Positions 2,659 to 15,647 of a stretch of DNA of 15,647 nucleotides are shown one piece after another (position 1 is the first letter of the stretch; every line of letters begins with the position of its first letter). Source of the DNA: Thelonectria olida (taxonomy: Eukaryota; Ascomycota; Sordariomycetes; Hypocreales; Nectriaceae); contig JAGPYM010000150.1 in the NCBI GenBank assembly GCA_020736575.1, positions 1 through 15,647 of the forward strand, read 5' to 3'. The translations under genes and the position numbers were made by a program. The notes beneath the pieces are model-generated. The model saw only the letters and a list, made by a program, of their open reading frames with translations. It made no database searches and was not told the DNA's origin.

Positions 2659-3484
2659 TTACCATGGCATAACACCGCCGTCAACATGTACTAAGCCATT
2701 CTTCTCAATATCAACATCCCTCTTTCCTTCGATAATCTCAACTATAGCCAGGGCTGGTTCTTTTGGGTCCCTTGCACCTCCCTTGATCCGCCATTGGCGA
2801 CCCTGCTCTCCCGTCAAGTTCGACAGACACCAGCCGGGATTGAAGGCAACCACCTTAATGCCCTTATCTGTAAGGTTGTAGCGGTGACAAGCTGCTACCA
2901 TATTGAGGGCCGCTTTGCTCGTACGGTACGCCTCGCCTTGAATATTACGGAACTGATGATTTGGATCAAGACGCAACGTGATAGAGCCTTGTTCGGAAGA
3001 GACATATATGACGAAGGCTTTTCCAGATTTCTTCAACAGCGGTTCGAGCGTCTCCGTCACCCTCAATGAGCCGATGACATTGGTCTCAAACGATTGTCGG
3101 AAGGCAGTTAGCTTATCAACCTCCTGGTAGACGACTATGCCCGCATTATTGACTAAAACGTGGAGCTTGCCAAACTGAGCCTCGATGTAGTCCTTAGCAG
3201 TATCGACTGATTTTCGATCGGTAATATCAATCTGGATCCCTGAAATGGAGGCTTTGAGTGAACTGTCGGCCGTGGACTGAATTTCGTTCAAGGCTTGTTG
3301 GGCTTTTTCCACAGTTCGAGCACCCAGCAAAATGTGGAAGTTGGCAGAGTGTTTTGCCAACTCTAGGACAGTTTCATAGCCAATTCCGCTATTCGCGCCT
3401 AAAGTGAATGTTAACCTTGCTGTCGTAAGGAGGATGCCGAATTTACAAACCGGTTACTAAGACAACGGTCTTACTGGAAGCCAT
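2659..3484 (-). CDS. Short-chain dehydrogenase/reductase (SDR), two exons, 257 aa
   Basis: Exon 1 is 3484 to 3451 (MASSKTVVLVT plus one base). The intron is 3450 to 3399 (52 nt, donor GTTTGT, acceptor TTTAG). Exon 2 is 3398 to 2659. Splicing completes the cofactor motif TGANSGIG (residues 11-18); an uninterrupted frame would begin only after it, which decides the gene model. Further SDR landmarks: NNAG (95-98), the structural Asn in FETNVIG (N118), the catalytic serine in YVSSEQG (S145/S146), and YRTSK (Y169, K173). The length of about 257 aa is that of a classical single-domain SDR. The protein should be a cytosolic NAD(P)H-dependent carbonyl reductase; no membrane segment or targeting signal is seen. 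It is unlike its convergent neighbour at 909-2030 outside the family motifs, so the two are not recent duplicates. The GTTTGT donor is off the usual consensus but gives the only splice that restores the motif. Confidence 0.88.
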
Positions 3485-3830: not shown

Positions 3831-4423
3831 TTCACTCTTAGCATATTAAATATACTAGTATTTGTACTATATGCTAAGTATGGTACAGATTTGTAAATAA
3901 TAACTATTTTCACTTATATAAAATTTTATTAAAAATTTAAATATTAAAAAAAAGTATTTATATAAATTAAAATTTATTTAATTATAGTTTAAAATATAAT
4001 TAAATAGCTAGTAAATAATTTAAAATTTAATATAAATTTTTAAAAGTATTTTAAAATATTTTTTAAATATTAATATTTATATTTTATTAAAATTATAATT
4101 ATATATAATATTATTATTATTTTATTATTAATATATATTATACTTTTTAATATATTTTAATAAAAATTTAATATTATATATTATTTAAATTATTATTTAT
4201 ATTATTAAATATTTTAATAAAAAAATTAGATTTTAATAATATATAAAATTAATATATACTAGCTAAAGCTTAAAAATATAAATAATATAATTATTAATAT
4301 ATTAAATAATATATTTTTAACTTATTATAAAATTTATTATTATATAAATAACTTAACTTACTCTTACTTTTATATAAATTAAAGTAATTATATAATATAT
4401 AGTAGGCCTATTGCTATAGTGGA
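3831..4423. repeat. AT-rich, CpG-free block (RIP-like relic)
   Basis: From just after the CCGGAG at about 3825 to the GGACCGC at about 4421 I find no CpG. The sequence is almost entirely A and T, rich in TATA/TTAAAT strings, with no coding potential beyond a few short stop-bounded frames. This is how RIP-degraded repeats look in Pezizomycotina. The original element cannot be recognised. The block separates the SDR promoter from the promoter of the next MDR gene. Confidence 0.7.
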
Positions 4424-5113
4424 CCGCTGTTAATATTATTTAAGCTAAAGTGCATATGAAAATACTATTCCCACCCCGTCATACATGGGTGCACCCTGCT
4501 TACAAATTGTCCATTGGACCAAGCGGTAACAGGTGGGAAATATGGAACGCCCTTCGGCGGCCGATTTGCTTTATTCAAACAGGTTAGCGTTCCGTAGTTG
4601 GACAACGTATGTACGGAAGCATGAGGCCCTCAAGGTCTTTTGCTGAGCTAGTGTGGGAGGAAAACGTCCGAGGGAACTAGGTAGCTTAGTATGAAGGCAT
4701 TTCGGGATGTTAGCAACCAATTAACGTCCTGCTTGCGAAAAAAAGGACAGCAGTGGCCAAAACCAAAGTACCGGCGTTACCGATTTGCCCTGATAGGAGC
4801 AGCGTCGGAGTAGGTGCCTAGCTAAGGCCGTCCACGTTGTGTAAGCAACCTTGATAGTCAAGTCAAATCACGCAACCATCATCCCTCCTTGACGATTGCT
4901 GTTGGCCCCTCCCCTGGATAAACGAGGGTTATTTTGACCCGTTATCTCCGTCTTATACTGTAAGTGACGTTTACACTACTAAAATGTTTCTTAAGTGAGC
5001 TATTAAGGCTATATAAATGCTTAGCCACCTCGCAAGTTAAGACCTTTGCCCCAAATCTTGAAGTCTAGATCTCAACAAATCTTCTTCACAACTCTTTCGT
5101 CACTTTTGCCATT
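4424..5113. other. Non-coding region upstream of the plus-strand MDR gene
   Basis: 690 bp of normal base composition with no supportable ORF. It contains a 10-bp palindrome GGGTGCACCC (4487-4496) and an ATTGG (reverse CCAAT) near 4512-4516. The last 110 bp form a core promoter: TATATAAA at 5010-5017, then C/T-rich sequence leading to the ATG at 5114. Part of the left half could be eroded gene or transposon sequence; nothing is recognisable. Confidence 0.5.
5010..5017 (+). promoter_or_regulatory. TATA box of the plus-strand MDR gene
   Basis: TATATAAA lies 97 bp before the start codon at 5114, followed by pyrimidine-rich leader sequence (about 5078-5110) typical of fungal transcription start regions. 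Confidence 0.5.
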
Positions 5114-6309
5114 ATGTCTTTACCTACAGATATCAAGGCTGTTCAGGCTGAATCCCAGGGCAAGGCCATTATCAAGACTGTATCCTTGCCTAAGCTCCGG
5201 CCCGACTACCTTCTTATCCGTACCACCGCCATCGCGGTGAATCCAGCTGACTGGAAACACCTCGAATACGGCGCAGGACTCGCTGGGACCACAGTCGGAT
5301 GCGATTATGCTGGCGTTGTGGAGGAGGTTGGTTCCGACTTAAGCAAGCCTTTTAAAAAGGGTGATCGGGTTTCTGGTTTCGCTCATGGCTCGTCTGTAAC
5401 TTCAATTCCTCTCGGTAACGCATTGAGCTAACATATCTGAACAGAAACAAGGTTCAGCCTGAAGATGGCGCTTTTGCCGAGAACTGTGTCGCCAAAGCAG
5501 GCGTTGCATTCAAGATTCCCGACAATATCAGTGACACAGAAGCTGTCACTCTCGGACTCGGTATTGCTACAGTGGTGAGTCTCGCTGAGAATGGAGTTCC
5601 AAAGCCATATTTCTAGGTAAATTTCTTACAAGTTAAGTACTCACAGGTCCAAGGGCTTTACAGAACCCTGAAGCTGCCACTGCCAACTGATCCCATCACC
5701 GAGCCTGCAACGATCCTGATTTATGGTGGCTCTACCGCTACAGGCATGCTCGGGGTGCAGTATGCCAAGTTATCTGGCTTCAGCGTTGTGACGACATGTT
5801 CGCCTGCCAATTTCGACTATGTCAAGCTTTTAGGTGCTGATGCCGTGTTTGATTACACTGACCCTGAGCGGTGTGTCTCTAATATACGTGACTTCACACA
5901 GGGCAGCCTGAAGCTTGCGTGGGACTGTGTCGCGACGCCTGAGACGGCGAGCATCTGTGCGGGAGCTCTATCTACGGACGAGGAGTCCCATTATAGCTCG
6001 CTGCTGAGGGTTAATGCTGACGACATCACAACCATTAATTCCAAAGTTAATATGGCCGTCTCGGTAGCATACGTGAGTCTGGGGGAGCGGTTTGAAGAGT
6101 TTGGTACGGTTTTCGAGGCTCAACAAGAGGAATACGAGTTTGCTAGCATGTTCTTTGAGTTGAGTAAGCGTCTTCTAGAGGAAGGCAAGCTCAAGCCGGC
6201 ACGACAAGTGACTAACAAGGGGGGCATGGGGCTAGTAGGTGCCCTTAAGGGCCTGGAGGAGTCTAAGCTGGGTAGCGTAAGGGCGGCAAAGCTGGTCTAT
6301 ACTTTATAA
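5114..6309 (+). CDS. MDR oxidoreductase, ToxD / trans-enoyl-reductase-like, three exons, 356 aa
   Basis: Exons 5114-5391, 5445-5574 and 5647-6309. Intron 1 (5392-5444; donor GTCTGT, branch GCTAAC, acceptor ACAG) is the only splice I found that joins FAHGS to NKVQPEDGAFAE in frame. Intron 2 (5575-5646; GTGAGT...CACAG) joins GIATV to VQGLYRTL. The product has the GroES-like N-terminal half (NPADWKH; GCDYAGVVEEVG; FKKGDRV), the HGS...PEDGAFAE segment and the GLYRTL helix of this subfamily. An NADPH-binding YGGSTATG follows at residues 162-169. The length of 356 fits. Structural-zinc cysteines are not evident, as in the quinone-oxidoreductase/enoyl-reductase branch. Known relatives include stand-alone enoyl reductases that work with reducing polyketide synthases and many uncharacterised zinc-binding-like oxidoreductases; no synthase is in this window, so a biosynthetic role is inference. 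The stop codon lies directly at the edge of a CpG-free AT tract. Confidence 0.9.
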
Positions 6310-7159
6310 TATGAGTTTAGGGCTTGTTAGAGGAAATTATAAGGCTAGAATAATACTTTTAGGAAACTTAAAGCTATAGCATACCTATTTTAATAGAAAA
6401 GAGCTTAAATTAGTATATAAAAGTTATTTATAATATATATAATAAGTATATAATACATTTAAGTATATAATACACTTTTCCCTCTTATATTTAACTTTTT
6501 AATTAATTAATTAATTTTTTAATTATAAATAATATTTAACTTTAATATTAAGGCTAGAACCCTGTTTATATTTTAAGCCTTTTAAAATAACTTAAAATTA
6601 AGTATTTAATATACTATTAAGATTTAAAAGGTTTTTAAGCTTAAGCTCTATTACTATTAAAATAATATCTAATTATAATATAATTAAATCCTTTAATTAT
6701 ACTAGCTATTAGATTTAATAGAATAGATTATAATTTAATTTATTTTTAATTTAAATTTTAAAATATTTCCCATATAATTATATACTATTAAAAAATAGCT
6801 AACTAACTACTTACTAATTATAATATATTACCTATTAGTAAGTGCTAGGCTTTTAACTTTATTAAGTAATAAAAAAAGTTAAAAATAATTTTTATTATAT
6901 AAATATAACTATTAAAAAGCTAAATATAAAAATTTAAAAAAGTTTAAAAGTAGTTTTAACTTGTAGTAAATATAAGTATAAAATATAATATTTAAAATTT
7001 TAATAAAACTAGCTTTTTTATAAGTATAATTATAAGTAAAATAAATATTATAAGTATAAAAATATATAAATAATTAAAATTAATATAGTTTAAAAGCTAG
7101 AAATAAATTTAAATAATTAATATAAAAGGTTAAGTAATTTAGCTATTTATTATAAGTAT
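6310..7159. repeat. AT-rich, CpG-free tract, left flank of the retrotransposon
   Basis: 850 bp with no CpG dinucleotide that I could find and very little G or C, starting abruptly at the stop codon of the MDR gene. No ORF, RNA gene or recognisable repeat is visible. It would be continuous with the AT-rich sequence at 15389-15647 before the retrotransposon inserted, giving one tract of at least 1.1 kb. RIP-degraded old repeat DNA is the likely explanation. Confidence 0.75.
7155..7159. repeat. Target-site duplication, left copy (AGTAT)
   Basis: AGTAT directly precedes the LTR start (TGTAACG) and is repeated directly after the other LTR at 15384-15388. Five bp is the usual duplication size for Ty3/Gypsy integrases. 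Confidence 0.9.
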
Positions 7160-7547
7160 TGTAACGATCTGGTCAATTCCCAACGGATAAGACTAGAGGG
7201 TTCTAGGTTTATGTTGGCAGAGAGATCAGGGCGTTAAGGTCTGAGCAATGTAGTGGGTTGTTACGTCTGGTAATGTGCTCAAAGTAGATGAGTGTAACCA
7301 AGTTGTATTGAAAGCTGAAGTAGCTGTATCTATCTAGTGTGCTAAATGAATGTGTTTATATACTAAGGGTGTTTTCCTTGGATCACGGTTGAGATCGTGA
7401 GCCTTCCCTTGGATCACGATTGAGAGGGTGATCCAGTTGTTTGGATCACGCTCTGGAAGGTGATCCTCCGATGATTGGGTGGTAAAAGTGGGGCAAGTTG
7501 GGGCTGATTTCTGGCACGTGATGGGGTGTTCGTTACGGACCGTGACA
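7160..7547 (-). repeat. 3' LTR of the retrotransposon (388 bp)
   Basis: Same sequence and length as 14996-15383. It begins TGTAACG and ends CCGTGACA on the plus strand, so in element orientation it opens TGTCACGG and closes CGTTACA. It contains CACGTG (7515-7520), a CCAAT on the minus strand (7474-7478), three 26-bp imperfect palindromes (7378-7466) and a TATA box on the minus strand (7355-7362). In this downstream copy the LTR provides the element's 3' end, and it could also drive plus-strand transcription into the antisense gene. Confidence 0.95.
7378..7466. repeat. Three phased 26-bp imperfect palindromes in U3 (3' LTR copy)
   Basis: Units at 7378-7403, 7409-7434 and 7441-7466. Each starts TTGGATCACG and ends GTGATCC (GTGAGCC in the first), so the arms GGATCAC and GTGATCC are complementary around a 9-10-nt centre. 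Unit starts are 31 and 32 bp apart, near three helical turns. The array lies upstream of the minus-strand TATA box and, for the plus strand, 200-290 bp before the antisense gene. The same array is at 15214-15302. It is probably an enhancer-like array bound by a dimeric factor. Confidence 0.8.
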
Positions 7548-7667
7548 CGATGTCTCCCCTCCGTTGGTCTTGTCCTCAAGGCCATATTCGTGACCTCGCA
7601 TAATCGCCAGTGGTTAGTCAACTTAAACCTCCATTTTTCCTTTTCCTTGTGCCGTCATGCTGACACA
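7548..7667 (+). promoter_or_regulatory. Leader / possible core promoter of the antisense gene
   Basis: 120 bp between the 3' LTR and the antisense start codon. It contains a pyrimidine-rich run (about 7630-7650), as often found at fungal transcription starts. The context CACAATGTC around the ATG at 7668 fits the filamentous-fungal start consensus. A short out-of-frame ATG at 7657 lies just before it. No TATA is seen here; the nearest is inside the LTR. Confidence 0.4.
7553..7562 (-). promoter_or_regulatory. Polypurine tract (plus-strand DNA primer)
   Basis: In element orientation this reads GGAGGGGAGA, five bases upstream of the 3' LTR start TGTCACGG, where the plus-strand primer is expected in LTR retrotransposons. 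Confidence 0.75.
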
Positions 7668-8344
7668 ATGTCAGGCCGCGTGACCAAATCCAAAGCGAAA
7701 AAGACATCCGAACGTGATTCTTTGGTTCGTTTTCTTGAGCAGAATTCTCGTCCAGCCGACATGCCTTGCACTTATTGCTTCAAGCACAAACCCCAATTGG
7801 TGTGCGAGATGGACGACACGGGTCGAACGGACAAGTGCAAGCAGTGTGTTCGGCGGGGTCGAACATGCGATGGTGTCAACGTGGCTTCTTCTTGTGTGTT
7901 TTTTCCTGGTGTTTTTGTTGTTTTCCCTGCTAACTCTCCTGTGCAGTGAACAGACTCGTTGAGCAGCAGAAAAAACTGGAGTTGGAAGAGGAAGAGGCTG
8001 GGGACAAGATTTTAGTCCTTCATACTCAGCTTGCGGAGCTGCAATCGTCTTTGGCCCAGGCCGTGAGTCGTTTGGCTCGTATCCGCAAGATCAAGAAGAG
8101 GGTGAAGGAGAAGGGTTCCGAGTTGTTTGAGCGGGGGATGCAAGAGTTGGACAAGGAGGAGGGCATTCTCCCGGCGTTAGAGTCTCACGAGAACTGGGTG
8201 GTGGGCGACCTTCGGTCGTTAGGCGTTCCCAACGAGGTGGACTGGTCTTCTCTAGGTCTCGGGGAGGACTTTAACGGGCTTGGTCCTTTGCTTGATCCTG
8301 GCGTTGCTGGTGAAAGTTCTTCAGCAGGCGCTGCGCATGGTTGA
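7668..8344 (+). CDS. Antisense accessory gene of the retrotransposon: Zn2Cys6-like cluster plus coiled coil, 207 aa
   Basis: Exon 1 is 7668-7893, the intron 7894-7946 (53 nt; donor GTGTGT, branch GCTAAC, acceptor GTGCAG), exon 2 7947-8344. Splicing fuses ...DGVNVASS to LNRLVEQQ through a split leucine codon; unspliced, the first frame ends just past the junction. Residues 1-33 are basic. C34, C37, C46, C57, C60 and C67 give CX2CX8CX10CX2CX6C, close to the fungal Zn2Cys6 pattern but with a longer first loop. Residues about 77-150 form a heptad-rich coiled coil (LEEEEAG, LHTQLAELQ, SRLARIRK), then a short acidic tail. The start is the ATG with CACAATG context; the frame opens further upstream inside the LTR. 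The last 74 bp overlap the end of pol. I recall similar uncharacterised proteins scattered in ascomycete genomes, but no established function. A DNA- or RNA-binding dimer acting on the element is inference. Confidence 0.8.
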
Positions 8345-11300
8345 GATGTTCCGGTGGTTCCCATGTATTTTCCTTTTGGTCGTAGCCTTTCCATTTGACG
8401 AGGTACTTGATTTGTCCGTCTTCCTTCGTGATGTCGAGGATTCGTTCTGCTTCGTACTCGTCAAGGTCTTCGACTTCGGTTTCTGTGTCGTCGTTCGTTC
8501 TGACCATGATTGTCCCTTCTGTTGACTCGAGTAAGGAAATGTGAAAGATTGGATGGAGCTTGACCTTCGGTGGTAAGTCCAGTTTGTAGTTGTTTTCCGA
8601 GATTTTTTCCAAAATTTTGTAGGGTCCAATGTATTTGTAGTCGAGTTTTTTGTTTGGTCTTTTCGTGTTGATGTTTCTTGTGGCGAGGAGCACCATGTCT
8701 CCCTCCGAGAAGGTTGGTCCCTTCAACCTTTTCTGGTCGTAGTATTTTTTGTGCATTTTCTGAACAAAAGAAAGTTCTGTGCGCATTTCTTCATGCAAGT
8801 TCTTGAGTTGATCTGACGCAAGGATAGCTGCCGGTGCAAGTGGTCCGTTCCTTGAATCTCTGTAGGCGTCGGGGGTGAATCCAAAGTTCGCGTAGCTCGG
8901 TGTGATCTTGGTACTTTCGTTGGTTGCTGTGTTGTATGCCAGTTGTGCCGTTGGCAACTTCTCAACCCAATCGTTCTGGATATGGTTGATGTAGCAACGA
9001 AGGTAGGTCTCCAAGACTTGATTCATTCGTTCGGTCTGTCCATCGACTTGCGGTCTCCAAGCGGTGGTCAACTTGTGGTTCAGTCCGATCCTTGCCATGA
9101 GGCATTGCCAAAAGTTCGAGAAAAAGGGTGGTCCTCTATCCGAGATGATCGTATTAGGTAGTCCGTGTGTGCTGACAATATTTCGTAAAAAGATGTAGGA
9201 AAATTCTTCTGCGTCGGTTGCTTCTTGATATGGAATGAAATAAGAAAATTTTGTGAGTCTGTCGACAATGACTAGAATGCTGTCGTAGGCCGTGCTCGTA
9301 GCAGGGTCTAACGATAGGGGTAATTTCGTAATGAAGTCCATAGTGATTGAGTCCCATGGTCGTTCCGCGACCGGTATGGGTTGTAGTTCTCCGTATGGCT
9401 TGTGTCGTCTTGCCTTCGTCTTACCGCAGATGAGGCACTGTTTGATGATTTTCTTGACTGTTTCTTTGACTCTAGGAAATGAAAATGTCGTCTTGACTCG
9501 TTCGAGGGTTTTGTTGATTCCTTGGTGTCCGTGGAGCGGGTGTTCATGGATTTCCCGTACGAGGTCCTCTCGTAGGTGTTCCGGTACTTGTTGTTTATCT
9601 GTTTTTTCGTCGCTCGGTAACTGTTCGTTGTATTCCAGGATTTGTTTGAGTAGTGGATTTCCCTGTTCCACTGTGTGTGTTGCTGCGAGGGTGTTGCTGA
9701 CAGGGGTTCTTCCTATCATCCTCGGGGTGAGGCCTTCGTTCTTCAGGCACTGATCGCAGTGGAGGTAGTTGTTTGGTCCAGCTCCTTCCCACCAGAAATT
9801 CTCGTTGAAGAAGTTCCAGAATTGTAGGTCGTCCCATTTCTTGTGGTGCTTGATGGTTTGATGACAGTGTTCGATGAATTCGTTTCGTATTTTCCGGGGT
9901 AGGTAGATTGTTCCTTGATAGGTGATCATTCCTAACACCGAGTTGACCCAGTCTGCTCGTCCGATGATGAGTTGTCTGAGCTCGTCTCTGGTGATTGATT
10001 GTCGGATGCTTTCCTTCCATTGTTCTGTCAAACATTCAGGGATGCGTTGAGCGGTGGTGGCTGCGATGTATTTTTGTTTGAGGTGTCCTTCGGGCGTGAA
10101 AGCCAGTAGTTGTTCTTTCGTCTTGACCTTGCCTGTGTCGAAGTCAGGTCGTCGGCTGATGGCGTCGGCTCTGCCATTCTCCGATCCTTTCTTGTGCTTG
10201 ATGATGTAGTCAAATTCTGATAGGTATTCGGCGTATCTGAGTTGTCGTCCGCTGAGTTGTTGCGTGGTAGCGAAGTGGGAGATGTTCTTGTGGTCTGTGT
10301 AGACCGTGACCTGGTGGTGGCTTCCTAGTAGATATTGTCGAAACTCCTTGAAAGCTTGGACTATCGCGAGAAATTCTTTGTCGTAGATGGGGTAGTTGAG
10401 TTCTGCTCCGTGCAACTTGTGGGAGTAGAATGCAATTGGGTGCAACTTTCCATCGTCGTCGCGTTGTCCGATCTGGGCTCCTAGGGCGAAGTCTGAGGAG
10501 TCCGTTTCTAGTTCGATAGGTCGTGTAGGGTCAAACATCTTGAGTACTGGTTCGCTAAGGATGAGATCCTTGATTTTGTCGAAGGCTTCCTGGATGTTGG
10601 GTTTCCAGATGAATGGTCGGTCCTTCTTTGTTAACTCAGTGAGGGGTGCGGCTAGTTTCCCAAAATCTTTGAGGAACTTGCGGTAGTAGTTTGCGAATCC
10701 TAGGAAGGCTTGTACTTCCTTGACTGACTCTGGTTTCTTCCAGTCTTTGACTGCTGAAAGTTTCTTTGGGTCCATTCGTATCTCGTTGTGGGAGATAATG
10801 TGTCCCAGAAATTCCACTTCCGATGCGTGGAAATGACTTTTCTCCGGTTCAACTAGCAGTTTGGCGTCTTCGAGAGCTTGCAGTACCTTGTGGACGTGTT
10901 CCGTGTGTTCTTCTTCCGTCCTGGAGAAGATGAGGATATCGTCGAGGTAGCATACCACGAATACGTCTAGGTATTCTCGTAACACGTTGTTAATCATTCG
11001 TTGGAATGTTGCTGGTGCATTGGTGAGACCAAAAGGCATAACAAGATATTCGTATAGCCCGAATTTCGTTCTGAAAGCGGTTTTCCATTCGTGTCCTTCT
11101 TTGATGCGGATGAGGTTGTAGGCTCCCTTCAGATCTAACGCGGTGAAGTACTTCATCCCGTGGAGTCGGTCCTTCAGTTCGTTGATCAAAGGCAAGGGTG
11201 TTCTGTCCTTGATGGTAATGTCGTTGAGCCTTCGGTAATCCACAACAAGTCGGAGCTTTCCGTTCTTTTTGGGAACGAACATGACTGGATAGCCTGCTTC

Positions 11301-12254
11301 TGACTTGGAAATCCTGATATATCCTTTCCTTAACATTTCTTCGAGGTAGTTCTTGAGCTCGTGCAGCTGTGCTTCGTTGAGGTTGTAGATGGGGTGGAAC
11401 GTGGTCGATGTTCCGTCTTTGAGCCAAATCTCGTGATCCCATTGAGAATGCTCTGGTAGTCCTGTTTCCAGTTCTTCGGCAAACAGTTTCTTGTATACTC
11501 TGTACTGTGCTGGTACGTTCTTGAGTCTGTCGTCAGATGATTCCTTCTGTTCTTTGAGGTCTTCGTTCATCTGTGCAAATGTCTTCTTGAGGAATGCGAT
11601 TGTTCGTCGTGTTTGTTGCGCTTGCCCTTTCTTGTGTTTGTGTCGTGTTCCTTTTGGAGGTCGTGCTTTCTCCGTAGGTTGAGGAGTGTCTTCGTTGTTG
11701 CTCCGCCGTACTTCTTCGTCCTCTTCGATAGAAGTTTGAGATCTCGTGTCGTCTGAATCGTTGTCCGTATCGTTGGCTGCATCACTTCGAAAAGCTTGCA
11801 CCTGGCCAGTACGCCAACTGATAAGGGGGTCATATCGGTAAAGCCATGGGTAACCTAGGAGTAGGTCGTATCCTTGGAGAGGTATGATGTCGAGGTCAAC
11901 TCCTTGATTCTTTCCTTCGATGAACACTTTGAGGTGATCAACCTCGCGGGTAACTTGTCCATTTTCGTACTCGAATGGTTTTCCTTCTACATCAGATATC
12001 CCGTAGGGTATGTCCTTGTCCTTCCATGGTAGCTTGAGATGATTGACCACTCGTGGATCAACTCCATTCATCTCTGCTCCGCTGTCTACCAACGCGGTAA
12101 ACCATTGTCCCTTGATTCGTACTTGCAGCATCATCCGTCGTCGTGGTGATGTATCGTTGGGTCTTTGCGTTGCGCATAGAGCTCTCCTTGGAGGTTCTGC
12201 AAATTCCTCCTGCTCTTGCCGGTCCTGTGGCTCTGTTACAGGCGGCGTTTGTCG
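8271..12254 (-). CDS. pol: Pol polyprotein (PR-RT-RNaseH-IN-chromodomain), expressed as Gag-Pol by -1 frameshift
   Basis: About 1327 residues downstream of the frameshift; the frame is also open back to 12641 but that part overlaps gag. Protease: LVDSGAEMNG (DSGA codons 12075-12086). Reverse transcriptase (about 10780-11330): RLVVDYRRLN, FTALDLKGAYN and the catalytic YLDD (10938-10949). RNase H (about 10130-10520): TDSSD, YDKEFLA, YTDHKN, RADAISR. Integrase: two HHCC-like modules (9747-9902 and 9426-9587), then core residues D (9336-9338, MDFI), D (9138-9140, SDRG) and E (9030-9032, QTERMNQ). A GPY/F-like module (YIGPYKILEKI) lies at about 8600-8640. The chromodomain (about 8310-8463) carries YEAERILD, YLVKWKGY and TWEPPEHL, which in chromoviruses steers integration to marked chromatin. 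No stop or frameshift interrupts the frame and all catalytic residues are present. Its 3' end overlaps the antisense gene by 74 bp. Confidence 0.96.
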   Translation of the reverse strand, partial: RQTPPVTEPQDRQEQEEFAEPPRRALCATQRPNDTSPRRRMMLQVRIKGQWFTALVDSGAEMNGVDPRVVNHLKLPWKDKDIPYGISDVEGKPFEYENGQVTREVDHLKVFIEGKNQGVDLDIIPLQGYDLLLGYPWLYRYDPLISWRTGQVQAFRSDAANDTDNDSDDTRSQTSIEEDEEVRRSNNEDTPQPTEKARPPKGTRHKHKKGQAQQTRRTIAFLKKTFAQMNEDLKEQKESSDDRLKNVPAQYRVYKKLFAEELETGLPEHSQWDHEIWLKDGTSTTFHPIYNLNEAQLHELKNYLEEMLRKGYIRISKSEAGYPVMFVPKKNGKLRLVVDYRRLNDITIKDRTPLPLINELKDRLHGMKYFTALDLKGAYNLIRIKEGHEWKTAFRTKFGLYEYLVMPFGLTNAPATFQRMINNVLREYLDVFVVCYLDDILIFSRTEEEHTEHVHKVLQALEDAKLLVEPEKSHFHASEVEFLGHIISHNEIRMDPKKLSAVKDWKKPESVKEVQAFLGFANYYRKFLKDFGKLAAPLTELTKKDRPFIWKPNIQEAFDKIKDLILSEPVLKMFDPTRPIELETDSSDFALGAQIGQRDDDGKLHPIAFYSHKLHGAELNYPIYDKEFLAIVQAFKEFRQYLLGSHHQVTVYTDHKNISHFATTQQLSGRQLRYAEYLSEFDYIIKHKKGSENGRADAISRRPDFDTGKVKTKEQLLAFTPEGHLKQKYIAATTAQRIPECLTEQWKESIRQSITRDELRQLIIGRADWVNSVLGMITYQGTIYLPRKIRNEFIEHCHQTIKHHKKWDDLQFWNFFNENFWWEGAGPNNYLHCDQCLKNEGLTPRMIGRTPVSNTLAATHTVEQGNPLLKQILEYNEQLPSDEKTDKQQVPEHLREDLVREIHEHPLHGHQGINKTLERVKTTFSFPRVKETVKKIIKQCLICGKTKARRHKPYGELQPIPVAERPWDSITMDFITKLPLSLDPATSTAYDSILVIVDRLTKFSYFIPYQEATDAEEFSYIFLRNIVSTHGLPNTIISDRGPPFFSNFWQCLMARIGLNHKLTTAWRPQVDGQTERMNQVLETYLRCYINHIQNDWVEKLPTAQLAYNTATNESTKITPSYANFGFTPDAYRDSRNGPLAPAAILASDQLKNLHEEMRTELSFVQKMHKKYYDQKRLKGPTFSEGDMVLLATRNINTKRPNKKLDYKYIGPYKILEKISENNYKLDLPPKVKLHPIFHISLLESTEGTIMVRTNDDTETEVEDLDEYEAERILDITKEDGQIKYLVKWKGYDQKENTWEPPEHLNHAQRLLKNFHQQRQDQAKDQAR

Positions 12255-12260
12255 TTTTTT
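12218..12260 (-). promoter_or_regulatory. -1 programmed ribosomal frameshift signal (gag to pol)
   Basis: Element-strand heptamer A AAA AAC (12260 to 12254), in phase with gag (codons TCA AAA AAC). A 7-nt spacer GACAAAC follows. Then comes a stem GCCGCCTGT (12246-12238) pairing with ACAGG (12228-12224) and CGGC (12221-12218) across a 2-nt bulge, 9 bp in total with a 9-nt loop. The gag stop (12238-12236) falls at the stem/loop border. pol is in the -1 frame relative to gag, exactly as this site requires. Confidence 0.88.
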
Positions 12261-14932
12261 GACTTCTGGTGCACTTCCTTGACCCAGTCTTCCACCGTGT
12301 CGTTCTTCTTGGGTGGTACGTTGTAGGGTCGTGTGTATCGTGCTGGATGCTTCCTGTGCCAATCCGCTATCTTGGCTCGTTCGTGTACGAGGCACTCGGG
12401 GTGCAAGCATCTGACTTCGTCGTACGTTCCGTCCAGGCATTTCTTGGGGAGTGCGTGTGTGTACTCCGCTAGGATGGCAACGTTCAGATGGTGTAGCCAG
12501 GTCACAGTCCTTCGTGACGCTAGGTCGGTGGCTTGATACCATCGTCCAATTGGGTACGGTCCCAATCGTAGTGGGTAACAGTCGTTCTTGACTTTGTCGT
12601 TCAGGTGGTGTGTGCAATCGTGGTAGTAGCAAGATACCCATGAGATCACATGGTGATCCTGGTGCATTGTGCTGAGGATGGGTGCGTCGTCTTCGTGCGA
12701 CTGATGAAGTTCATGTTTTCCGGATTGCATTGCTTGTCGTGTCACACCGTGGACATAGAGTTCTTCGGCATCGATTCTCTGTCCTCGTCTGATCTGTTCA
12801 TGAATTGGGTGGACTCGTCTTGTCTCTCCTTCTTCTGCGATGTCTTCCGATTCCTCGTCGGGTGTTTCGTAGATGACCGGTTCTCCGGTTCGTGGTTGTC
12901 TGGTTGACTGCGCGTTGTCGAGCGAGTCAGGAAACACATGCCATGTGTTGACTGGTAGTCCCAATTCTCGGGCCCTGTCCAAGTCTGACAGTGTTAAAAA
13001 GGGTTGCGGGATGTCGTCCTTGCTTTGAGTTGCGAGTTCTCGTTTCACGAGGTTGATAAGTTCGGCGTCGGCTGGACTTAGGTCGAGATCGTCAGGTTTG
13101 TTGACTTGTTGACGTTTCGGCTGTAGGTTCCTAGCCTTGGTGTATCGTTTTTCCTCTTCGTTGTAGACGATGTCGCTTCCTTCCGGGCTTGCTGCCTTAC
13201 TCCTGCGGACCATTGCGAGAATCTTTGTGTTGTTCTGACCAATGTGTCCGGTCTTTCGTGGTTCGGGGACTGGTCTCCATGTGGCGTACTTGGCGATACT
13301 TTGTTTGCGTAGGTTGGATCGGGCGTCCAGTTGAATCGTTGTGTCAGCGTCGTCGTGCTCGGCTTCCTCCCGTTCCTTGTACAGACTCCGTGATGCCAAT
13401 AGTACGGTGTCATTGGGGATTCCTCCGTTGTCGTAACCACTTCGTGCCATTGCGAGGGTTTTCTTTGGGATGTCCTGGTTGGGTGCGTCATCCTTGGGTG
13501 TGTTAATTGGTACCTTCACCCATTCCTTGTCCTCGCGAATCTGGCAATTTCCTGGACAGGTTTCGTCGTATGCAGTGAGTCGCATCTTCTGTCCTTCCTT
13601 TCGCTGAAGCTTGCGGGGATAATATCCGTTGTCTTTGCCGTTCCTGTGGGTGTGGCAGTTGTCGTCGTAGCACGCCGTCCAGTGCATCAGGGCATGCTCC
13701 TGGGGTTCAAGGTACTCGTTGATCTTGCCATCAATGCACACGTAGCAGTTTTTGTTTGTGCACGTTGCTTGATGCTGTAGGGCGTACTTGCGTCGTTTGT
13801 CGTGATCCACTGGGTCGGTCGTGACCATGGTGGTTGCTGCCAGCGTTCTGGTAGCCGTTCTGACTGCCATTTGTGGTTCGTCCTGTCGGTTAGTGTTGTT
13901 CAAGCGTCGCTTACCTTCTGGGACAGGTTTGAACTTCTGGTTGGTTTTGTTGGGGTTTCGACACTTGCTTTCGAAATGTCCCTTCTTTCCACAGTTCCAA
14001 CAAGTGACTTGCGAATAGTCTCGTTGAGTGGCTCCGAGCTCCATGGGTCCTGAGTTCGTGCCGTAGGAGGTGTTGCCTTGACGGGCTCTTCCTTTTCCCT
14101 TGTTGTTGTTTGCTTGATACCGGTTAGGGTAGTAAGGGTCGTAAGAGGTGTTTCGTCCCGTGCGGCGTTCTCGGGCCTTCTCTCTTCTGCGTTCGTACTG
14201 TCTTTCGTCGATCTTGACGGCCATGGTGATGAACTCCGTGAGGGTCTCGGGGCGTTCCGCCTTGTAGATTTCGTCTTTGACTTCTTCTTTGAGTCCCTGA
14301 TAGTAGATTTCCATGAGTACATCATCATCCCATTCAAGTTTGGCTGCAACTTGTCGAAATGCAACGGAGTAACCGGCAGCAGACTTGAGTTGTTTGATCT
14401 GGTAGATGTCGGTGGCTGCTTGTCGTTCTTCGTTGACCATTCCGAATGTGTCTTTGAGTGCAGTTTCGAAATTGTCCCATTCCGAGAAGATGTTGACCGT
14501 GTCTTGGTCTCGACTGACGTCGTCGTCATGCTCGAGGTAGTCTCTCATGATAGGTTCGAACCAAGTGGCTGCGGTTCCCTCCATGCGACTGTAGGCGTAC
14601 ATGACCCTTCCTTCGGCCGAGGCAAGTCTGCGTGGGAACCATCGGAAGTAGGTTCCAAGTCGTGTAAGGAAAGGTACAACGTCTTTGGAGGTTCCGTTGA
14701 AGGGTTCCGGTTGAGGTGGTTTGACTGCTTCGCCGGGATCACGTCCTCCATCCTGTTGAATGGCCGGGGCTTGTTGTCCTTGACTCTGCACCTGAGTACG
14801 GAGTTGGTTGACCAAGTTCCGAAGTTGCTGGACTTCAGTGGCAACCTCCGCATTGCTAGGTGGAGTGTTGTAAGCCGGGGGTGAGTTGTTCAACGCAGGG
14901 TTGGGAGTGTTGGTAGGTCGACTTCCGGACAT
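12236..14932 (-). CDS. gag: Gag polyprotein, 898 aa, zinc knuckle plus long C-terminal Cys/His extension
   Basis: The start is the ATG at 14932 (MSGSRPTNTPN); the frame extends upstream to 14983 without an ATG. A coiled-coil-like stretch (about 28-50) precedes a Ty3/Gypsy capsid-type region (PFNGTSKDVVPFLTRLG, YAYSRMEGTAATWF, IYYQGLKEEVKDEIY). A basic stretch then leads to a CCHC zinc knuckle CWNCGKKGHFESKC (residues 311-324; 13961-14002) of nucleocapsid type, for genomic RNA binding. About 570 residues follow, which is unusual: many Gypsy Gags end near the knuckle. This part repeats C-x4-C-x2-[H/C] at C391, C421, C768 and C842, two copies with a following YYP/CYP-xx-L, plus two LAM-x-R segments (coding near 13440-13470 and 13206-13226). 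A capsid/nucleocapsid role is sure; the extension's role is unknown. Translation ends at TAA (12238-12236) unless ribosomes shift into pol at residue 893. Confidence 0.93.
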   Translation of the reverse strand: MSGSRPTNTPNPALNNSPPAYNTPPSNAEVATEVQQLRNLVNQLRTQVQSQGQQAPAIQQDGGRDPGEAVKPPQPEPFNGTSKDVVPFLTRLGTYFRWFPRRLASAEGRVMYAYSRMEGTAATWFEPIMRDYLEHDDDVSRDQDTVNIFSEWDNFETALKDTFGMVNEERQAATDIYQIKQLKSAAGYSVAFRQVAAKLEWDDDVLMEIYYQGLKEEVKDEIYKAERPETLTEFITMAVKIDERQYERRREKARERRTGRNTSYDPYYPNRYQANNNKGKGRARQGNTSYGTNSGPMELGATQRDYSQVTCWNCGKKGHFESKCRNPNKTNQKFKPVPEGKRRLNNTNRQDEPQMAVRTATRTLAATTMVTTDPVDHDKRRKYALQHQATCTNKNCYVCIDGKINEYLEPQEHALMHWTACYDDNCHTHRNGKDNGYYPRKLQRKEGQKMRLTAYDETCPGNCQIREDKEWVKVPINTPKDDAPNQDIPKKTLAMARSGYDNGGIPNDTVLLASRSLYKEREEAEHDDADTTIQLDARSNLRKQSIAKYATWRPVPEPRKTGHIGQNNTKILAMVRRSKAASPEGSDIVYNEEEKRYTKARNLQPKRQQVNKPDDLDLSPADAELINLVKRELATQSKDDIPQPFLTLSDLDRARELGLPVNTWHVFPDSLDNAQSTRQPRTGEPVIYETPDEESEDIAEEGETRRVHPIHEQIRRGQRIDAEELYVHGVTRQAMQSGKHELHQSHEDDAPILSTMHQDHHVISWVSCYYHDCTHHLNDKVKNDCYPLRLGPYPIGRWYQATDLASRRTVTWLHHLNVAILAEYTHALPKKCLDGTYDEVRCLHPECLVHERAKIADWHRKHPARYTRPYNVPPKKNDTVEDWVKEVHQKSKNDKRRL

Positions 14933-14995: not shown

Positions 14996-15190
14996 TGTAA
15001 CGATCTGGTCAATTCCCAACGGATAAGACTAGAGGGTTCTAGGTTTATGTTGGCAGAGAGATCAGGGCGTTAAGGTCTGAGCAATGTAGTGGGTTGTTAC
15101 GTCTGGTAATGTGCTCAAAGTAGATGAGTGTAACCAAGTTGTATTGAAAGCTGAAGTAGCTGTATCTATCTAGTGTGCTAAATGAATGTG

Positions 15191-15198
15191 TTTATATA
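15191..15198 (-). promoter_or_regulatory. TATA box of the retrotransposon promoter
   Basis: The minus strand reads TATATAAA in the 5' LTR, preceded by a CCAAT box and the palindrome array and followed about 47 nt later by AGCTTTCAA, the candidate transcript 5' end. Confidence 0.65.
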
Positions 15199-15213
15199 CT
15201 AAGGGTGTTTTCC

Positions 15214-15302
15214 TTGGATCACGGTTGAGATCGTGAGCCTTCCCTTGGATCACGATTGAGAGGGTGATCCAGTTGTTTGGATCACGCTCTGGAAGGTGAT
15301 CC
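15214..15302. repeat. Three phased 26-bp imperfect palindromes in U3 (5' LTR copy)
   Basis: Units at 15214-15239, 15245-15270 and 15277-15302, the same as in the other LTR: TTGGATCACG at one end, GTGATCC or GTGAGCC at the other. Here they lie just upstream of the TATA box that should drive gag-pol. Confidence 0.8.
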
Positions 15303-15383
15303 TCCGATGATTGGGTGGTAAAAGTGGGGCAAGTTGGGGCTGATTTCTGGCACGTGATGGGGTGTTCGTTACGGACCGTGACA

Positions 15384-15388
15384 AGTAT
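15384..15388. repeat. Target-site duplication, right copy (AGTAT)
   Basis: Matches 7155-7159 exactly and sits immediately after the CA end of the LTR. Confidence 0.9.
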
Positions 15389-15647
15389 AAGTAAATATTA
15401 CCTTACTAATTAGTATTAAAAAAATAACCTTTTAAATAATTAAGCTATTATAATATTATAAAATAGCTAGACTAATAATAAAGAGGTTTTAAATAGTTAA
15501 AATATTTTAATTAGTTTATAATTAAATAATTAAATAATAACTATTATTTTTTAATTTTTAATAGGTATAAAAGTGACTATTTTATTAATTTTAAAAAAGA
15601 TTATAAAAAGAATAAAATTATTATATTTTATATATTGGCTTATTATT
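15389..15647. repeat. AT-rich, CpG-free tract, right flank of the retrotransposon
   Basis: No CpG and almost no G or C to the window end; no ORF or RNA gene. It is the continuation of the tract at 6310-7159 into which the element inserted. Confidence 0.75.

Follow-up and report, generated by a model that had tools for sequence, protein, structure and literature searches.

The window analysed here is the whole stretch of 15,647 nucleotides from the 52.5 Mb genome of Thelonectria olida, and its minus strand carries an intact-looking Ty3/gypsy chromovirus. The two LTRs, each 388 bp long with TG...CA ends and located on the minus strand at 7160-7547 (3' LTR) and 14996-15383 (5' LTR), are identical, with zero differences, and the element is flanked by a 5-bp target duplication, AGTAT, at 7155-7159 and 15384-15388. 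Between the LTRs lie gag (12236-14932, minus strand; Retrotrans_gag, with a zinc knuckle just under its Pfam cut-off) and pol (8271-12641, minus strand), in which protease, reverse transcriptase, RNase H and integrase follow one another in the PR-RT-RH-IN order ahead of a C-terminal chromodomain. Together with the LTRs and the target duplication these are the features of a chromovirus, the Pfam basis being that the protease and the integrase core score below their cut-offs and the other pol domains above. A TATA motif, TATATAAA, at 7355-7362 on the minus strand marks the predicted sense (gag-pol) promoter, and a polypurine tract (PPT) at 7548-7562 on the same strand, kept across the cassette types described below, adjoins the 3' LTR. 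The Gag product is long (898 aa), and by eye a C-x4-C-x2-H/C pattern recurs about four times in its second half besides the CCHC knuckle. AT-rich stretches, again judged by eye, surround the unmutated element (3840-4440, 6330-7158 and 15384-15647), which on inspection looks like a young insertion that landed in RIP-degraded DNA. Host-like flanking genes were recognized by eye at 909-2030, 2659-3484 and 5114-6309, two being short-chain dehydrogenase-like and one enoyl-reductase/alcohol-dehydrogenase-like.

On the strand opposite to gag-pol, between pol and the 3' LTR, lies an antisense gene of two exons. Exon 1 (7668-7893, plus strand) encodes a Zn2Cys6-like cluster with the spacing CX2CX8CX10CX2CX6C, and exon 2 (7947-8343, plus strand) encodes a coiled coil and an acidic tail. 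They are separated by a 53-nt, phase 1 intron (7894-7946, plus strand; GTGTGT...GCTAAC...GCAG), whose removal leaves an open spliced frame of 207 aa. Eight donor/acceptor combinations were tried, of which 7893/7947 (207 aa) and 7898/7953 (206 aa) are open; homologs (...VASSLNRLVEQQ...) match the 207-aa splice form. The two-exon structure proposed in the first-pass annotation, including the length of the intron, the length of the product and the cysteine spacing, was borne out in each respect, as was its statement that the gene lies mostly outside pol: pol ends at 8271, so that the overlap is limited to 8271-8343, 73 nt including the stop codon. The 746-bp gene region is present at seven places at 100% identity, the window counted, and at one place at 99%; a further nine places match it at 65-75% over at least 257 bp. 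The latter copies are AT-rich, differ mostly by transitions and contain stops, which is a RIP-type pattern. The genome also contains a second family of elements, family B, with seven complete copies of a homologous gene and one cut by a contig end. The family B homolog is an open frame of 180 aa with 34% identity to the window protein, and its intron of 51 nt has the same site and phase as that of the window gene. Position between pol and the 3' LTR, orientation and presence in related copies are all those of an antisense additional ORF. Given the eight places at 99-100%, the conserved homologs, the shared intron site and phase, and the bias of transversions towards codon position 3 presented below, the gene is beyond chance, and on sequence grounds we regard the ORF as a real protein-coding gene.

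Selection at the codon level was assessed from transversions, which are a record of change apart from RIP because RIP yields transitions only; the stretch tested stops before pol. In L014, the most diverged readable copy, transversions number 5, 2 and 31 at codon positions 1, 2 and 3 (183, 182 and 182 sites), and they occur at 13 of the 53 intron positions. The excess at position 3 over positions 1 and 2 together is pronounced (P = 2.9e-10), as is that of the intron over the same two positions (P = 2.1e-8). Since the gene copies are related to each other, the P value was taken from L014 alone. Eight more copies (L009-L013, L044, L049 and L053) display 0-1, 0-1 and 5-8 transversions by codon position. 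A codon bias is not clear in L015 (9/8/13) and L089 (34/37/38), which have larger indels and align poorly; both are counted in the overall totals of 49/49/135. In family B the transversions, 6/3/4 over approximately 1400 sites each, are too few for a codon test. The distribution of these RIP-proof changes shows purifying selection on the antisense gene, with the predicted spliced frame constrained. Stops or lost cysteines in related copies had been regarded beforehand as an argument against the gene; that argument stands only for copies of the RIP type, and it fails in that the RIP-proof changes in those same copies show earlier purifying selection.

A protein database search at E 0.001 returned 34 homologs from 632 candidates, one of which is the window's own exon 2, and a profile search gave 104 homologous proteins among 7995 candidates scored. 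The names displayed are from Fusarium, Colletotrichum, Verticillium, Trichoderma, Metarhizium, Thyridium and further Sordariomycetes, plus a single weak match in Aspergillus; among the matches listed, the closest named protein is from Fusarium. The six-cysteine pattern, with a first loop of 7-9 residues also allowed, is present in 84 of the 112 proteins compared, most commonly with the spacing CX2CX6CX8CX2CX6C (63 of the 84), and 20 of the 28 proteins that have no such pattern are shorter than 160 residues. The Zn2Cys6 consensus is CX2CX6CX5-12CX2CX6-8C. The family conforms to it in spacing and the window protein departs from it through the CX8 first loop, which is a variant within the family, longer by two residues. 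The window protein had no match to Pfam PF00172 (Zn_clus), not reaching the gathering score; family B scored 19.6 bits against a cut-off of 21, and 5 of 16 members of A1 matched at E 1, the best at 0.0024. Searches of Pfam, PDB sequences and Foldseek found no named DNA-binding family, only Zn_clus below cut-off where scores were shown, and a solved Gal4-type structure was found neither by sequence nor by fold search. The model of one homolog (P0001; pLDDT 78.9) has a pair of short helices in the cluster as well as one 78-residue helix at 73-150, and had no match in the PDB at E 0.001.

Full-length six-cysteine proteins number 75 (73 database entries together with A and B), and in every one of them the C-terminal 70 residues are acidic, with a charge of -5 or below in 71 of them and a median of -10, as against +6 for the N-terminal 70 residues. 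A Trp following an acidic (or Pro-Pro/Val) residue is found in the tail of 67 of the 75, and the conserved tail Trp is present in 16 of 16 proteins of a smaller set. The layout of cluster and coiled coil pointed out in the first-pass annotation is seen across the family, with the acidic tail in addition. In dimeric fungal activators, too, a basic six-cysteine cluster is joined by a linker to a coiled coil, and an acidic tail follows. Some database proteins from raw contigs are of the joined form (e.g. P0011, P0012, P0035 and P0036; contigs of approximately 1-1.5 kb) and others of the intron-containing form (e.g. P0032, P0034 and P0050), which hints that spliced transcripts are among the sources. 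When IMG/VR contigs were searched for such loci from other species, 101 places matched the pattern and none of them encodes a relative.

The U3 of the LTR contains an array of three 31-32 bp units at 7373-7466, each with a dyad that is a predicted operator. Dyad 1 (7380-7403) reads GGATCAC-N10-GTGAGCC, and dyads 2 (7411-7434) and 3 (7443-7466), which were also recovered by a whole-genome pattern search, read GGATCAC-N10-GTGATCC. The same dyads lie in the 5' LTR, upstream of gag-pol, at 15216-15239, 15247-15270 and 15279-15302. They are upstream of the TATA motif, with 17 bp between it and dyad 1. Dyads of different sequence occupy the same U3 slot in LTRs of other types: GGATCAC-N10-GTGATCC in type A, to which the window belongs, GGACCGA-N13-TCGGTCC in type B and AGTCGA-N11-TCGACT in type C. 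When inverted repeats and 6-mer families in the slot were compared with 300 dinucleotide shuffles, the slot stood above the shuffles in 3 of 3 LTRs of type A (P 0.007 or less), 4 of 4 of type B and 4 of 4 of type C. Type D (2 LTRs) was significant by 6-mers only (inverted repeats P 0.17 and 0.08) and type E in one of two LTRs (L099; P 0.56 and 0.32 for L098); type F was above the shuffles by neither measure (P 0.11 and 0.24), and in type G (L103) there were zero inverted repeats and the 6-mer result came from a poly-T run. The controls, namely R/U5 of A and B and the leader, exon 1 and pol end of A, were not above the shuffles.

Conservation within type A follows the half-sites. Two un-RIPed A-type LTRs (L090 and L097) differ at 2 of 84 half-site positions versus 26 of 82 spacer positions, and by transversions alone at 1 versus 7 (P 0.03). 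Among eleven RIPed A-type LTRs, transversions affect 5 of 462 half-site positions versus 42 of 495 in the spacers (P 3e-8), the counts for all differences being 144 and 209. The exact A dyad occurs 40 times in the genome, compared with 0 for a control pattern, and 39 of these lie in A-type U3 stretches: eight elements account for 32 through their paired LTRs, two further, identical LTRs (C106 and C158) for 4, and diverged A-type stretches (C102, C109 and C110) for 3. The exact B dyad occurs 20 times, each time within a U3 stretch of type B, again with a control of 0. For the C pattern, 8 of 16 occurrences are in LTRs examined and 2 more have the same spacer; the other 6 equal the control count of 6. 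The one exact A dyad outside any recognized A-type LTR stretch is at C1:1794581-1794604, and it may be a host target or chance.

Gene and dyads vary together on a backbone that is otherwise shared. One element of each type was compared by transversions: the window element for A, L055 for B and L087 for C. The difference between them is 1.1-1.2% in the integrase region (8501-9180; 674-722 sites), versus 27-33% for the exons, 22-34% for the leader and 33-39% for the variable U3. The values fall again to 0-3.8% in the PPT segment (7538-7590) and 1.4-6.6% in R/U5. The last part of pol (8344-8500) is intermediate at 6.4-10.8%, more than the integrase, so that the divergence does not begin abruptly at the gene. 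With the U3 type of each locus scored apart from its gene type, 20 loci were A/A and 12 were B/B, with 0 mismatches in 32; L078, with a B gene and a U3 assigned to B by eye, brings the agreement to 33 of 33 A or B loci. Gene and U3 also agree by eye in L088 (B) and L089 (A), outside the 33. These 33 loci represent two lineages and not independent events, since there are only three gene-bearing types and C comes from one copy. The count leaves out nine pol-bearing places that have no A or B gene match (C159:37712, C4:45180, C37:1586, C159:24342, C51:11434, C131:7732, C158:52790, C122:91635 and C136:100126) and several gene places (C133:1693073, C148:52963, C86:2799, C22, which is cut by a contig end, and further decayed places), where discordant or new cassettes may lie. 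At C159:24342 an A-type stretch is found approximately 6 kb further on (C159:31159), where its other LTR would lie.

Type C with a gene is defined by L087, a sole, decayed copy whose U3 matches C-type LTRs. Its gene matches that of B weakly (74 bits) and that of A not at all, and no in-frame GT-AG intron could be placed in it by eye in this single copy. R/U5 is not bound to a particular cassette: in L065 and L066, which are older B copies, it is A-like. Because the nearly identical unmutated copies form sets of 8 for A and 7 for B, both cassettes belong to recently mobile elements. A decayed B-type element at C111:1958715-1974480 is interrupted by a young A-type element, which lies between the gene side of the B element and its pol.

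Taken together, we consider that the antisense gene probably encodes a dimeric Zn2Cys6-type activator of the palindromes in its own LTR, so that gene and repeats would form one regulator-operator cassette, and we put the probability of this reading at roughly 0.64. The pairing of regulator and operator by itself is highly probable. A self-encoded activator was chosen on account of the layout of the protein, the fit of dimer and dyad, the upstream-activator position of the dyads relative to the sense promoter, their location upstream of the antisense gene as well, and the joint change of gene and dyad; the first-pass annotation, which had proposed that the element carries its own antisense-strand regulator, is upheld to this extent by the codon-level selection, the layout of the family and the LTR dyads that change with the gene. 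From these features we infer transcription, splicing, binding and activation as follows. The basic N-terminal cluster would read the half-sites, the coiled coil would hold together a dimer that suits the dyad, and the acidic tail with its conserved Trp would recruit the transcription machinery. At the 5' LTR, 17 bp upstream of the TATA motif of the sense promoter, the bound protein would drive gag-pol; at the 3' LTR it would turn on the antisense transcript of its own gene, to be spliced afterwards. Since pol is on one side of the gene and the 3' U3 on the other, a single template switch in pol during reverse transcription could move regulator and operator together, and the U3 switched in would then be copied into both LTRs by reverse transcription. 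The switch is suggested by the mosaic pattern and the known mechanism of LTR copying, and it would account for the mosaic elements as well as for where the gene lies.

An activator and a repressor are not separable from sequence alone. Most fungal Zn2Cys6 proteins are activators. A repressor that acts on the LTR dyads to limit its own element, with new pairs escaping in the manner of heteroimmune phages or copy-number control, is the strongest of the alternatives, although unlikely: variable regulator-operator pairs on one backbone do resemble an immunity region, and both LTRs have the same dyads, but the nearest dyad stops short of the TATA motif instead of covering it, and the invariably acidic tail is activator-like. 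Less likely again is a chromatin or anti-silencing factor that, bound to the LTR dyads, would keep heterochromatin off the element, activation being secondary, for which the joint divergence of protein and target motif reported for VANC/VANDAL offers a parallel (PMC5735166). Pfam matches to the kinetochore protein Fta4 (9 of 16 members at E 1, the best at 3.3e-5) point the same way; they are, however, confined to the coiled coil, and the bit scores displayed are below cut-off. Action of the antisense transcript as an RNA, forming dsRNA with the 3' end of pol while the protein is incidental, would fit the antisense overlap with pol, but it is very improbable, as RIP-proof changes avoid codon positions 1 and 2 and the protein is kept between families whose DNA is far diverged. 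Zn2Cys6 proteins are abundant in fungi, yet a host gene captured once as a passenger is equally improbable: three diverged versions occupy one place with a conserved PPT and C-terminal pol overlap, A and B have a common intron site, the LTR dyads differ along with the gene, the gene matches examined all adjoin this LTR, and no close host paralog away from elements was recognized (C133:1693073, C148:52963 and C86:2799 being outside the scope of both statements).

An activator encoded by the element and acting on its own LTR can be compared with several known systems. Gal4-type activators likewise combine a six-cysteine cluster with a linker, coiled coil and acidic region, and they have dyad targets, which are predicted here; the present proteins differ in being short (207 aa in the window, 180 aa in family B), the window cluster is longer by two residues, and the Gal4-type CGG is contained in the B half-site and absent from that of A. 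HBZ of HTLV-1 is a dimerizing nuclear bZIP regulator from a spliced antisense gene that reads away from the 3' LTR. The gene described here is also antisense, has an intron recognized by sequence only, reads away from the 3' LTR and encodes a predicted dimerizing regulator; unlike HBZ, the window protein has no bZIP match (Pfam, E 1), and the likeness drawn in the first-pass annotation, of layout and not of homology, holds. In logic the closest known system is VANC/VANDAL of Arabidopsis, in which a transposon-encoded sequence-specific anti-silencing protein co-diverges with short repeated non-coding motifs (PMC5735166). In both systems sister families differ in the protein and in its target motif at once, the targets in our case being predicted. 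In contrast, VANDALs are plant Mutator-like DNA transposons and the present element is a fungal LTR retrotransposon (chromovirus); its antisense gene has an intron and encodes a coiled-coil protein that is Zn2Cys6-like, and the dyads in its U3 are palindromic.

Plant elements of the Retand, Grande and RIRE2 type have antisense ORFs, e.g. TRP28, whose function is called unknown in the sections available (PMC11963269, PMC7264820). According to these sections they resemble the present gene in lying antisense between pol and the 3' LTR, in being conserved within lineages and in a suspected DNA-binding or regulatory role; they differ in that target sites are not named there, TRP28 has another domain, and Retand is a non-chromovirus with a pol-LTR region of 2.9-6.6 kb. 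The brtn gene of the Boty-like gypsy element of Botrytis cinerea (Zhao 2011), compared by its partial description only, likewise lies antisense in a fungal gypsy element, one that has a chromodomain; Botrytis is absent among the homolog names displayed, many matches being nameless. Among the matches listed in the literature search, which covered titles and the starts of abstracts and subscription journals thinly, neither an antisense zinc-cluster gene in an LTR element nor matched LTR operators were found. The parts are known already; the combination of a probable antisense regulator and predicted LTR operators is new.

A wider reading is that retrotransposons sharing one backbone are split into private groups, each with its antisense Zn2Cys6-type regulator and its own palindromic LTR operator, that at least five operator types exist within this one genome, and that the cassette is swapped by template switching, giving a system of specificity or heteroimmunity. 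This is put forward tentatively, at slightly less than even odds. If true, LTR retrotransposons can evolve private transcriptional control, by which related elements avoid switching each other on (or off), and the position of the gene adjoining the 3' U3 would be explained by a regulator/operator pair that travels jointly through reverse transcription. The case adds a conserved protein of DNA-binding layout, candidate promoter targets, and natural variants that differ in both on a constant backbone. As the protein, the candidate sites and the paired natural variants are in hand, its function is directly testable with short DNA and one protein.

Further operator types are represented by LTRs on the same R/U5. 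Dyads of type D (L096 and L101) read GGAGCGA/TCGCTCC and those of type E (L098 and L099) read GGTTCAC/GTGAACC, while L104 has a nested palindrome in the U3 slot; 231-236 bp of each of the D-type, E-type and L104 LTRs were examined. D and E cassettes occur at 3 and 4 places, and no pol or gene match was found near those examined, in a search that comprised pol matches from 40 of 47 candidates scored and the A and B genes as queries. The same search found none near LTRs of types D, E and F, which are likely relics of cassette types gone as full elements from the genome. LTRs of these three types with the shared R/U5 are seen at C102:57735-57965, C102:224150-224380, C106:187865-188095, C122:27585-27815 and C98:289560-289790. 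Between the dyads and the LTR end, blocks of ATTGG (sense CCAAT) and AAAAGTGGGG recur by eye in several types, and the outer end of U3 occurs in two versions, CACGTGA or GGTCATG..., in what by eye is again a mosaic.
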